A stretch of 39,467 nucleotides of DNA from Candidatus Gastranaerophilales bacterium (lineage in GTDB: Bacteria > Cyanobacteriota > Vampirovibrionia > Gastranaerophilales > Gastranaerophilaceae). This document shows, piece by piece, positions 1,815 to 39,467 of this stretch. The position numbers were made by a program, and so were the translations under genes. The stretch spans positions 1 to 39,467 of the forward strand of contig CANPZP010000010.1 in the NCBI GenBank assembly GCA_947589115.1, written 5' to 3'. Numbering within the stretch: the first letter of the stretch is position 1; every line of letters starts with the position of its first letter. The notes beneath the pieces are model-generated. The model was not told where the DNA came from, did no database searches, and worked only from the letters and a program-made list of their open reading frames with translations.

Positions 1815-2705
1815 TCATGTTTTATTTAAAATTTTTATCTGTTTAATAACTTTGTTCTTTGTAGATTGCATTTTTTTAGGGGCAAATTGCTGTATGTAAC
1901 TGATTTTTGCCAAAATAGACCTTAATTCAGTTAAAGACATTTGGTTTATTTCTTTTGTTCTCAACTTTTTTATAATGGCATATCCGATTTTAAACGGTGC
2001 AGATAACTTTTTGCTTTGAGAAATATAAACTCCTGTGATTTTAGCATATTTATAGACATATCGCTTTGTTTTGGATTTATTAAGCCAAAGTCCATGGGTA
2101 TGTAATGCCTTATTAACATACGTAATAACCCAATTCCCCATATGCTTATGTGTCGAAAGCACAATATCATCAACATAAAGAGTCATGTCTATATCAAGTT
2201 CGGACATTTTTTTATAAATGCTATCAAATATTTCTTTATGAATATATGCTAATAATATAGTGCTTGTAGGTGCGCCTGTTGGTAGATAATTGTTATAGGT
2301 TGCCAGTTCTGTTAATAAATTAAGTACTTTACCCCGAGCCCCTAAATTACCAGCAAAGAAGTCTGTTATATATTTTAATTTAGTATTAGGGAAACAATGT
2401 TTAATATCCATGGTAATAATTTCCCTTTTTCCTGCATGTTTATTTGCGTTTTTAATATTGTTTCGACCTTTAAAACCCGACATACAATATGGAGGACATT
2501 CTAAATGTTCTTGCAAATATTCATTTAACTTACTCTGTATTAATTTTAAATCGTTATTTGGCTCTTCAATCCAACGATATTTGCCGTTTTTATATTTTTT
2601 ATACCTGTTATAACCAAGGTCTATTGCCGTTCTTAATTTTATTTCCGTAGTTTGAAGAATATTTAATAGACCTGTCATAGTTAAACGAGAGAGGTTTTCA
2701 TTCAT
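1815..2705 (-). CDS. Retron-type reverse transcriptase
   Basis: This 296-residue reverse transcriptase has the usual length of retron RTs. Visible motifs are the first catalytic Asp in IITMDIKHCF (Asp100), LPTGAPTS (141-148), the active-site YVDD (177-180) and an ITG at 223-225. Two features mark retron RTs rather than group II introns or DGRs: a NAxxH motif (NANKH, 86-90) and the (V/I)TG motif. The SQ box typical of DGR RTs is absent, and there is no maturase or endonuclease domain. YVDD instead of the commoner YADD is a variant. The ATG has an AAGGA box. About 130 nt of highly structured sequence lies just upstream on the same strand, where the msr-msd RNA of a retron should be. Known retrons are anti-phage defence units with an effector; none is obvious here. 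Confidence 0.85.
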   Translation of the reverse strand: MNENLSRLTMTGLLNILQTTEIKLRTAIDLGYNRYKKYKNGKYRWIEEPNNDLKLIQSKLNEYLQEHLECPPYCMSGFKGRNNIKNANKHAGKREIITMDIKHCFPNTKLKYITDFFAGNLGARGKVLNLLTELATYNNYLPTGAPTSTILLAYIHKEIFDSIYKKMSELDIDMTLYVDDIVLSTHKHMGNWVITYVNKALHTHGLWLNKSKTKRYVYKYAKITGVYISQSKKLSAPFKIGYAIIKKLRTKEINQMSLTELRSILAKISYIQQFAPKKMQSTKNKVIKQIKILNKT

Positions 2706-28545: not shown

Positions 28546-29248
28546 TCAAATTCTGATAGGATAATCGTTTTTTATTTCCCATCCGTCATTTTGAATTAGC
28601 CTCGTACAATAATCTATAGCCCCTCTTTTGCAGGAATTAATATCATTTGTTCTTTTGATTAGTGATGGGGTATAATTACAGGTTGTTCCTCCGCAAATTT
28701 TAAACCAATGTATTCCTTCGTCAGTCTTATCATACTGTTGAATGTTAAAAACAAATATATCCCTTCCTTTATAGTTTGGGCCTTTTTCGCCGTTAACATC
28801 GTATATTAAACTTAGAGAACCATTATATATAAAAAACGGTATAATTAATGAACCATCATTTAGCATATAGACATTGGAAAATGTTTCTTTTTGTCCTCCC
28901 GCAGTTGGTGAATCAATAGTATATTTAATATTTTCAAGTTTTGTCACGGGCAGGCTGCTTAAATATTTATTCCACCAAATATCTAATTTATAATATTCTC
29001 GTTCTGAGTAAGAATCTCTCATAAAGTTGTAGTTATCAATTTGGGCTAATCTGACGGCTTGTGAGAGTGCAGAGTAAAACTTTTTTAATTTTGCGGAAGT
29101 TTCATGCTTTCTGTGATTTGCCATTACAATAGGAACAGTAATTGCCGCTATAATTCCGATAACTACGAGAGTAATTAAAACTTCTGCAAGAGTAAACGTT
29201 TTAACATTTTTGCTACGGGGGGGGGTAGATTTGATGCTTATTTCCCAT
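28546..29248 (-). CDS. Type IV prepilin-like protein, out of frame at a C9 tract
   Basis: With AAGGAG upstream, translation starts at the ATG at 29248 (MGNKHQIYPP) but stops at once, because nine C (coding strand) throw the frame into TAG. With eight (or eleven) C the frame continues as RSKNVKTFTLAEVLITLVVI, GIIAAITVP..., a textbook prepilin N-terminus with Glu5 after FTLAE, then MANHRKHETSAKLKKF and a 190-residue pilin body. Three Cys-containing pieces (KICGGTTCNY, INSCKRGAIDYCTRL) probably form disulfides. The intact body lacking stops argues against an old pseudogene. It is either a phase-variable pilin in the off state or a sequencing error in the homopolymer. Confidence 0.85.
29217..29225. 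repeat. G9/C9 homopolymer tract inside the prepilin gene
   Basis: Nine consecutive G on the plus strand (C on the coding strand) lie ~23 nt after the start codon of the prepilin gene, in a genome of very low GC. Loss of one base restores the frame. Such tracts slip during replication and switch surface genes on and off. Confidence 0.85.
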
Positions 29249-36607: not shown

Positions 36608-36613
36608 ATTATA

Positions 36614-36642
36614 ATTTTATACAACATACTTTTAATATTAAA
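36614..36642 (-). promoter_or_regulatory. Promoter of the UDG gene, probably leaderless
   Basis: On the minus strand, TAAAAT (36619-36614) is 6 nt from the ATG at 36607. The -35 (TTTAAT, 36642-36637, 17-nt spacer) is weak. Confidence 0.45.
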
Positions 36643-37037
36643 TATTTAATAAAGATTTATTAAAATATAAAGAAATGTTAATTTTAACTATTATATAACG
36701 ATATGTAAAAAATATATCAATTTTATACAGCATAATGTTTTTATATAAATAGACGGATATTAAGAAAAGCTTTTCAAAGGCGGTTAAATTTTTATTAAAT
36801 GATGCGGCGGGCATGTTAACTAATCAGATGCGGGCTTATATAATTGCCCTAAAGAACTAAACAGAAATAATTTATATTTCTATTATATAACTCTTTTCGT
36901 ATTTTGGGAGAATCTTAGATTCTCCTTTTTATTTATTAATAAATCATAAAAATGAATGGTTAAAAATTTAAATAATGTGGTATTATAATAAAAATAGAGA
37001 AGTAAATAATCAATTTAGCAAATAGGAAGTATAAATT
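36643..37037 (+). other. Intergenic region with a possible terminated small RNA
   Basis: No gene is seen. The middle (36764-36860) is richer in GC than its surroundings and has a perfect palindrome GAAAAGCTTTTC (36765-36776) and a GGGC...GCCC stem (36835-36853). A strong plus-strand terminator follows at 36907-36930, though no plus-strand coding gene ends before it after lptD. This suggests a short non-coding transcript. A GTATTATAAT promoter-like stretch and TAGGAAG precede the prepilin fusion gene. Confidence 0.45.
36907..36934 (+). terminator. Rho-independent terminator
   Basis: GGAGAATC (36907-36914), TTA and GATTCTCC (36918-36925) form a perfect 8-bp stem followed by TTTTTATTTATT. It lies upstream of the prepilin fusion gene and isolates it from lptD read-through. 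Confidence 0.85.
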
Positions 37038-39467
37038 ATGAGTAGAAAAAAACAAGCATTTTCGCTTGCAGAATTGCTGATATCACTTTTGGTTACCAGC
37101 ATGATTTTATCTGCAACGGTTCCGACAATTACAAGAAGAGCAAGTTCAATTAACGAAAACCCCTTTAGTTATTTTAACGGAGCAAATGTTAAGGGGGTTA
37201 TTTCTCCGAGCCAGCAATTATGGATTGGAGGTGCCGGTACTATATCCGGTGATTCAAAACTCGGTAAATTAAATATTGTAACATCGAATGATAATAATAG
37301 ACCCGTATCATTCTTTAGCAGGTCAGATACTCAATTAACTTATATAAATAGTCTTTACACTGATGATTCTAATAATATAGGATTTGGCGAACAAGTATTT
37401 AATCAAGATTTAAAGGATGCAGCACATAACGTAGCATATGGGGCATTTGCTCTTCAAAATCTTACAAAAGGTAAATATAATGTGGCTTTAGGCAGTGAAA
37501 CTTTAACGGCAAATACAGAAGGAAGTGACAATATTGCAATCGGGATGGATGCCTTAACAGGTAATACTAAAGGTAATGATAATGTGGCAATTGGCACCAG
37601 TACTTTGTTTGATAATATAGAAGGTTCTAATAATATAGCAATTGGGTCTAGTTCTCAAAGTTATCATTATAAAGGAGATAATAATATTGCATTAGGTGCT
37701 GAATCCCTGAAATCCTTAGTAAATGGTAATAATATTGTAGCAATTGGTTACAATGCTTTAAATAAATATGAAAATGATAAAGATAAAAACATTAATACAG
37801 ACGGAAGTATAGCAATTGGTGCTTATTCTGCCGCTAAACTTAAAAAAAGTGCATCGGGTATAAATACTGTAGTAGGTTATAATTCTCTGGCCTCGGCTGA
37901 AAATACGGGAAATAATACAGCGTTTGGTGCTAATACTTTAGCAGTACAAACAACGGGAAGCAATAATGTTGCAATTGGTAATAATACTATGTCTTTTTAT
38001 AATGGGTCTTATAATACGGCATTAGGTAACGGTGCATTACGAGGGCAAGAGAGATCTCATGGCGGAGACGGTATTAACAGTACAGGTAGCGAAAATACTG
38101 CAATTGGTACATATACACTTGCTGACAATAAAACAGGAAAATATAACACGGCACTTGGTAGTTACGCAATGGCGAATAATCAAACAGGAAGTTATAACGT
38201 TGCTTTAGGTTATAGGTCATTAAATAACGGAAGAGATAATAACAGTATTGCAATTGGTAATCAAGCTTTATATTATTCAATAAATGGCGAATATAATATC
38301 GTAATAGGAGATAATGCGGTATCTGGATATGACGGTAAATCAGGTTATACAAGTAGTACTAATAAAAACATAATTGCGATTGGTAAAGATGCAGGTCGTT
38401 TTTTGAATAAAAGTCAAAAAAGTATAGCAATTGGTCAAAATGCTTTAAGAGGAAAAGAGAATCAAATAATTCCTTCATATAATGCCGGTGGTAATGTTAA
38501 TACAATTGCTATTGGAGATAATGCATTAGCTTCCAGCTTTGATTCTACATATAATACTGCGATAGGAGTAAATGCGCTTGCTGCAAATGAAACAGGAGAT
38601 ATGAATACAGCAGTTGGTGCTTATGCATTAAATCTTGCAAAAGGTGGTTATAATACGGCTGTTGGGTTTGCAGCATTGGGCGGATTTGATCCTTCAGGCG
38701 GCAGTGCTAAAGGTATTGATTATTCCGGTATTGGAAATGCAGCGCTTGGAGCTTATGCATTACAGGATAATGTAAAAGGAAACCATAATGTAGCAATAGG
38801 TTCCAGTGCTCTTGAAACTAATATTAATGGTAATAATAATATCGCAATTGGATATACGGCAGCATATGGAATAAAACAAAGTTCAAATAATATATGTATA
38901 GGTGATGGTACTTGCGAGTCAGATACTTCGTATCAATTTGAATTAGGCGGAGGTACAGACAATTATAGAAATAAACGTAAATATTTATACGGCTCATTGC
39001 CCGGTCCTGATTTAACAGGCGGCAGCTGGACAAACGGTACTTTATATTTTGACGGTTCCTTTTATCCGAGATATGTGGGTGGTACTACCAGAAGGGTTAC
39101 ATCATTATATGTACAAAATTTAAATTATATTTATTCTCAACAAGATTCCGATATAAGATTAAAAAATGTGTCAGGAAATTCAAATATCGGTTTAAAAGAG
39201 ATATTACAAGTACAGCCAAAGAATTTTACATTTAAAAGAGATAAAAATAAAACACCACGTGTAGGTGTAATAGCACAAGATCTTCAAAAGATATTCCCGA
39301 ACTCCGTATCTCAAAATAGCGAAGGTTATTTAACAATAACTAAAGATGAGATGTTCTATGCAATGATTAATTCCATTAAGGAATTATACTCTAAATTCCA
39401 AGATATGATGGCAAAAATATCGGGCTTGGATAAGAGAATAGAACAGCTTGAGAAACAAAATGCCGCC
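37038..39467 (+). CDS. Prepilin / YadA-like head repeats / S74 chaperone fusion (3' partial)
   Basis: This frame is open for 810 codons from the ATG at 37038 (TAGGAAG upstream) to the window end, with no stop. Residues 1-30 are a type IV prepilin N-terminus (MSRKKQAFSLAELLISLLVT), with cleavage before Phe and Glu5. Residues ~110-630 are about twenty repeats of the YadA-head type, N-x-(A/V)-I-G-x-x-A-L (NNVAIGNNTM, YNTAIGVNALAANETGD), which in trimeric autotransporters form a left-handed beta-roll. The C-terminal part has SDIRLKN, VGVIAQDLQKIFP and ITKDEMFYAMINSIKEL, the S74 intramolecular chaperone of phage tail-spikes, which cleaves itself after trimer folding, then a coiled coil. A pilin helix on such a fibre is unusual. 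Confidence 0.85.
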   Translation, partial: MSRKKQAFSLAELLISLLVTSMILSATVPTITRRASSINENPFSYFNGANVKGVISPSQQLWIGGAGTISGDSKLGKLNIVTSNDNNRPVSFFSRSDTQLTYINSLYTDDSNNIGFGEQVFNQDLKDAAHNVAYGAFALQNLTKGKYNVALGSETLTANTEGSDNIAIGMDALTGNTKGNDNVAIGTSTLFDNIEGSNNIAIGSSSQSYHYKGDNNIALGAESLKSLVNGNNIVAIGYNALNKYENDKDKNINTDGSIAIGAYSAAKLKKSASGINTVVGYNSLASAENTGNNTAFGANTLAVQTTGSNNVAIGNNTMSFYNGSYNTALGNGALRGQERSHGGDGINSTGSENTAIGTYTLADNKTGKYNTALGSYAMANNQTGSYNVALGYRSLNNGRDNNSIAIGNQALYYSINGEYNIVIGDNAVSGYDGKSGYTSSTNKNIIAIGKDAGRFLNKSQKSIAIGQNALRGKENQIIPSYNAGGNVNTIAIGDNALASSFDSTYNTAIGVNALAANETGDMNTAVGAYALNLAKGGYNTAVGFAALGGFDPSGGSAKGIDYSGIGNAALGAYALQDNVKGNHNVAIGSSALETNINGNNNIAIGYTAAYGIKQSSNNICIGDGTCESDTSYQFELGGGTDNYRNKRKYLYGSLPGPDLTGGSWTNGTLYFDGSFYPRYVGGTTRRVTSLYVQNLNYIYSQQDSDIRLKNVSGNSNIGLKEILQVQPKNFTFKRDKNKTPRVGVIAQDLQKIFPNSVSQNSEGYLTITKDEMFYAMINSIKELYSKFQDMMAKISGLDKRIEQLEKQNAA

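Follow-up and report, generated by a model that had tools for sequence, protein, structure and literature searches.

The last gene of the DNA analysed here probably encodes a modular type IV pilin, minor or at the tip, that carries a phage-like homotrimeric fibre (probability about 0.7). The window, by which we mean the whole stretch of 39,467 nucleotides, is all of contig C10 in a Candidatus Gastranaerophilales genome of 1.82 Mb and 98 contigs. An 810-codon ATG frame runs from position 37038 to the final base of the window, where the contig also ends, and joins a prepilin N-terminus to YadA-like repeats and an S74 domain. The first-pass annotation had read this fusion from the letters and their open reading frames; profile searches, the wider family and a complete paralog confirm it, and its interpretation of the gene is largely supported. 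The parts of the gene and its surroundings, preceded by a second pilin-like gene of the window, are as follows.

28546-29248, reverse strand: ordinary prepilin-like gene with its ATG at 29248 and a C9 tract at 29225-29217, one of 11 such genes of the genome (see below)
36608-37037, forward strand: intergenic stretch upstream of the S74 gene
37038-37058, forward strand: prepilin leader MSRKKQA, with a predicted prepilin-peptidase cut after Ala7
37059-37136, forward strand: hydrophobic N-terminal helix of the mature pilin, FSLAELLISLLVTSMILSATVPTITR, with Glu5 and Pro22 (profiles, models)
37137-37415, forward strand: beta-rich linker or fibre collar, with a conserved W and QxAxIG in the family consensus
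37416-38942, forward strand: about 27 YadA-like/phage-spike head repeats, mostly of 17 residues, NxAIGxxALxxNxxGxx (repeat count, profiles, model)
38943-39146, forward strand: stalk preceding the S74 domain (structure model)
39147-39308, forward strand: S74 intramolecular chaperone/autocleavage domain, with a predicted self-cut before Ser704 and the dyad S704-D705...K709
39345-39467, forward strand: C-terminal helix (coiled coil), interrupted by the contig end (paralogs, model)

The S74 gene appears to stand alone. Its stop lies beyond the window: the paralogs on contigs C54 and C15 of the same genome stop 15 codons further on, ending in LEKRLEKLEAKETKK and a stop codon, and by this comparison about 15 codons would be lacking at the contig end. 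The final 120 bases of the window gene are nearly identical to the C54 copy (119 of 120 positions, with 77 identical at the extreme end), which explains why the contig breaks here. An Rfam scan of the window returned one tRNA as its sole match. At the other end of the window, a reverse transcriptase (1815-2705, reverse strand; RVT_1, 62 bits) has a pair of integrase-like genes and a tRNA close by and is a candidate retron or other defence or mobile reverse transcriptase.

Of 240 genomes of the order Gastranaerophilales, 126 encode an S74 domain; they represent 25 of the order's 49 genera, with up to 12 copies per genome. We read 69 S74 genes of the order. A prepilin motif stands in frame in 58, contig ends truncate 10, and the remaining one (L090) is without the in-frame motif, solely because its frame is shifted by a G9 tract that follows the motif. 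The motif is thus present in 58 of the 59 untruncated genes sampled across the order. One extra S74 gene, from a metagenome-assembled genome with 7% contamination (G010), lacks it, as do all 10 S74 genes examined from other cyanobacterial orders, one of which is truncated 5'. In a set of 48 family members, S74 matched all 48 and the prepilin N-methylation profile (N_methyl) 44; three of the four negative members are cut at contig ends.

In the window protein, Pfam places S74 at residues 704-757 (E 8e-11, 42.5 bits against a curated cut-off of 22). S704, D705 and K709 are invariant among the 48 sequences, and SxxxxK is kept in all 58 motif-bearing relatives. In MyRF, the substitutions S587A and K592A abolish cutting, and S587/K592 correspond to S911/K916 of endoNF (PMC8326128); the serine-lysine spacing of the window domain equals that of these two proteins. 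Self-cleavage and homotrimer formation of the window protein are predicted from its sequence.

Between the linker and the stalk, residues 133-620 contain 27 A(I/V/L/F/Y)G cores, counted by eye, which are mostly 17 residues apart and take the form AIGxxAL. Pfam YadA_head gave no match to the window protein alone at E<1, and it matched 18 of the 48 family members (best 5e-49). Against PDB, the profile of the 48 members matched, in its middle, the heads of BpaC (5e-17; entry 7o23), YadA (2e-10; 1p9h) and BoaA (9e-10), and, at its own N- and C-terminal ends respectively, Geobacter PilA (2.7e-6) and the ICA domain of MyRF (4e-11). The monomeric AlphaFold2 model of the window protein, of middling confidence (pLDDT 70.7, pTM 0.50), has one helix, followed by strands of three residues at regular intervals and by a helix at the C-terminus. 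In VIA-align, the body of the model matched YadA-like heads (Z 12-15 for YadA-type autotransporters, with BoaA at 13.4, rmsd 2.7 A over 126 residues, and AtaA at 12.1; CbpF 11.4), and its C-terminal end matched MyRF ICA (Z 7.5) and endoNF (5.8). A Foldseek search of the full model against PDB yielded nothing at E<0.001, the top matches being MyRF ICA and endoNF. We assign the window repeats to the YadA-like heads because the family members, their profile and the model match such heads. As left-handed beta-helix enzymes match the model body too, the head match alone does not reveal a function.

The N-terminus of the window protein carries a class III prepilin motif, A/FSLAE (cut at the slash), with Glu5 and Pro22. 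N_methyl matched residues 3-27 with 18.7 bits when the protein was searched alone, slightly below the cut-off of 21.2, and with 24 bits, above the cut-off, in a genome-wide scan. Among the 58 motif-bearing relatives, the residue before the cut is Ala in 33, Gly in 24 and Ser in one; all 58 have Glu at +5 and a Pro within mature residues 20-26, and the first charge falls at 25-28. The N-terminal family profile matches type IV pilins, with alignments mostly starting from mature residue 1. In both models, the N-terminal helix spans about 22-30 residues, against about 50 for pilin alpha1, and strands come next. A fold search with the model of the N-terminus and linker gave no clear match to a pilin globular domain, which we do not read as absence; the best match was the Mu tail fibre (Z 3.0).

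Four of the five S74 genes of this genome run into contig ends; at L006, L007 and L009 of this assembly, a contig end falls within an S74 pilin copy. Copy number and full sequences are therefore under-counted in short-read metagenome-assembled genomes. The C15 copy, however, is complete and does not reach the ends of its contig; like the window gene it starts with AFSLAELLISLLVTSMILSATVPTITRRASSINENPFSYFNGAN, and it ends in a similar way. The first-pass annotation had named two findings that would speak against it, a lack of S74 or YadA-head matches and an assembly error joining two genes. Neither was borne out: S74 matches at 8e-11 and YadA_head in 18 of 48 relatives, and a complete internal paralog exists alongside 58 motif-bearing genes among 59.

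The S74 genes of the order seem to share one origin. In a tree of S74 domains, the 58 members cluster together (support 95/88) and separately from the S74 domains of phages and other cyanobacteria, which fits a single capture of S74 by the order; the tree is weak because it rests on 105 columns. Between the window and C15 copies, DNA identity is 93% and 82% at the two ends and 46-56% in the rods. Conserved ends with divergent rods would be expected if the anchor and chaperone were fixed while the binding part changed.

Several genomes carry S74 genes in tandem, two or three together. In other families of the order (L112, L113, L216, L217), three short, divergent S74 pilins stand in tandem, which might give mixed trimers or a tip complex. 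At seven loci, an S74 pilin gene lies directly 3' of a DciA-like gene, in most cases with a thymidylate kinase-like gene nearby; this DciA-linked position is a fixed chromosomal site. Invertible DNA was considered for the paired S74 genes of genomes G049 and G127 and rejected, as the two pairs share one convergent arrangement and differ only in how the contig is turned; there was no sign of inversion.

The genome that contains the window gene encodes one A24 prepilin peptidase (PilD) and a PilB gene that adjoins PilC and the genome's only secretin. The YadA anchor barrel (PF03895) was found neither in the window protein nor in the genome. A member of the group from the termite gut is reported to carry type IV pilus genes (PMC5877343). 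Read from the sequences, the domain content, the order-wide fusion, the intact catalytic and assembly residues and the presence of this machine point to the following course of events. The hydrophobic N-terminus would direct export and membrane insertion, and the single prepilin peptidase would cut after Ala7, freeing Phe1 and Glu5 for pilus assembly. Three chains would co-fold, with the C-terminal coiled coil and S74 leading, and their YadA-like head repeats would make up a rod. Once the trimer has formed, Ser704 and Lys709 would remove the part comprising S74 and the coiled coil (about 120 residues), as in phage endosialidases and MyRF. The PilB/PilC machine would then add the trimer, most likely as an initiating tip complex, and push it through the secretin. 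Passage through the secretin would display the fibre at the cell surface as an adhesin, where it may bind a ligand.

Three points count against this explanation: the globular domain of a pilin is unrecognised, a trimer with three membrane helices would have to enter a pilus, and the fibre was modelled as a monomer, with middling confidence. The first of these also fits a prepilin-type N-terminus that is a mere inner-membrane anchor, with the trimeric fibre periplasmic or protruding outside any pilus. There are, moreover, 64 N_methyl matches in about 60 proteins of this 1.8 Mb genome, more than known pilus needs. An anchor does not, however, require the Glu5, Pro22 and cut site that are kept in 58 of 58 relatives, the genome has a type IV pilus machine with retraction ATPases, and repeats of an adhesin type would be of little use in the periplasm. 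We therefore consider a mere anchor unlikely. A place on, or release from, a type II secretion-like pseudopilus is a still less likely alternative to the type IV pilus. In NCBIfam, as a pseudopilus would predict, GspF is the nearest model to PilC (297 bits) and GspD the nearest to the secretin (167 bits). The motor, by contrast, has PilB as its nearest model (532 bits), and two ATPases of the PilT family score above the cut-off (492 and 416 bits), findings that fit type IV pili; a single secretin and a single PilD also have to serve the whole genome.

The pilus-borne fibre further has to be distinguished from a prophage tail fibre that gained a membrane helix by chance. The likeness to phage proteins is real: phage tail fibres align with the body and S74 domain (residues 131-798) at 31% identity, phage and giant-virus fibres in BFVD match as well, and PHROG tail-spike and virion-protein profiles match the body (tail spike, 198 bits). 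Against a prophage, among the matches listed no phage protein covers the N-terminus, an IMG/VR scan with back-translated peptides found no relative, and the neighbouring genes are mostly housekeeping, with no tail genes seen. The prepilin start shared by 58 of the 59 untruncated S74 genes sampled in the order and the separate grouping of their S74 domains weigh in the same direction, and in practice refute this very improbable origin. An assembly error that placed a fibre gene behind the start of a pilin has next to no chance and is already refuted, as the frequent contig ends in S74 copies are outweighed by the complete C15 copy and by the identical fusion in dozens of independent genomes from three families.

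Some of these pilins may also be switched on and off. A tract of G10 or G11 lies near the start in 9 of the 58 S74 pilins, in eight between the start codon and the motif and in one (C15) after it, in frame. The tract is in frame at L095, L096, L104 and L116 and out of frame at L094, L103 and L122; the window S74 gene has no homopolymer tract. In the first set read, 14 of 26 tracts preceded a prepilin motif, against 1.65% for random positions (p about 1e-18). Base composition predicts about 0.2 runs of G9 or longer per Mb, and 57 were found in the 0.50 Mb read of genome G034. Within 300 nt upstream of a prepilin motif lie 44 of these, namely 33 G10 out of frame, seven G11 in frame, two G12 out of frame and two exceptions. 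Most prepilin genes read in G034 (L183-L187, L223-L242) and G041 (L188-L191) have G10-G12 between start codon and motif; in nearly all, G11 is in frame and G10 and G12 are out of frame. To judge from these sequences, the two genomes may possess a pilin phasome of tens of genes.

The genome of the window gene itself has 11 pilins with C9 just before the motif, all in one out-of-frame state. In the one at 28546-29248, C9 between start and motif breaks the frame, leaving an 11-residue peptide, and the gene looks like a phase-variable pilin. Tracts of G9-G12 also lie in or near other genes of this genome (L192-L201), including sugar-nucleotide and transferase-like genes, as in known phase-variable surface sets. 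Slipped-strand phase variation is the best reading of the pilin tracts. As the tracts of two genomes all share one out-of-frame state, programmed frameshifting was also considered; it, or an assembly-consensus effect, may account for the uniform state in some genomes, although the spread of G10, G11 and G12 in G034 fits slippage better than frameshifting. Judged by the switch tracts, tens of pilin genes per genome may make up a phase-variable repertoire, of which a literature search on phase variation in Gastranaerophilales found no report. Taking all observations together, we give even odds to a wider scenario, in which the order captured a phage-type fibre end once and turned it into pilus-borne homotrimeric adhesins, with up to 12 genes per genome, conserved ends and fast-changing rods. 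Several genera would have added poly-G or poly-C phase switches over these and most other pilins, so that each cell would bear a different random subset at its pilus tips.

The window fibre would be an example of a phage tail-spike end reused on a pilus, and the protein is a candidate natural homotrimeric pilin with a built-in cleavage read-out. As Gastranaerophilales are gut bacteria that are largely uncultured, their S74 pilins are candidate colonisation factors. The combination of prepilin and S74 (IPR012902-IPR030392) is already tallied among the 15 most frequent architectures of modular pilins, with a suggested peptidase activity (PMC8179133), and is therefore not new. The three-part reading of the first-pass annotation stood, with the correction that the class has a precedent. 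What is new here is the reading as a phage-type trimeric fibre, the order-wide fibre class, the single S74 group, the mosaic divergence and the switch tracts; a literature search for S74 combined with prepilin gave no match.

The window protein shares features with several known systems. Left-handed beta-roll head repeats are common to it and the autotransporters YadA, BpaC, BoaA and AtaA. Unlike the YadA type, it has no beta-barrel anchor, its repeats are mostly of 17 residues, a prepilin start replaces the Sec signal and attachment would be N-terminal, via the pilin helix. Phage S74 spikes and fibres (endoNF, K5 lyase, the T5 L-shaped fibre, the GA-1 neck appendage and Roseobacter phage CRP-7) share the serine-lysine ICA and the repeat body, but are virion components without a prepilin N-terminus. 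A cellular parallel in S74 and fibre is provided by the Bdellovibrio MAT fibres, trimeric surface adhesins that self-cleave at SDxxxK (PMC10769870). Their S74 group (e.g., Bd3182) resembles the window class as a multigene family of large fibres with a terminal S74 and SDxxxK; the likeness is known for S74 and fibre only. MATs start with a signal peptide and a conserved beta-rich domain of 130 residues, whereas the window protein has a prepilin start, and the term "pilin" is absent from the MAT paper. Homotrimeric minor pilins at the tip do exist in type IVb pili, namely CofB and TcpB (PMC8179133), which as described there use other trimerisation modules, with S74 not mentioned. Streptococcus sanguinis has two modular type IV pilins, PilB and PilC, in which a large module is likewise grafted onto a class III prepilin N-terminus; PilB keeps a pilin globular module, whereas none is recognised in the window protein. 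Finally, where the survey of modular pilins took S74 as a peptidase, the S74 of the window protein looks like the folding and self-cutting end of a trimeric fibre.
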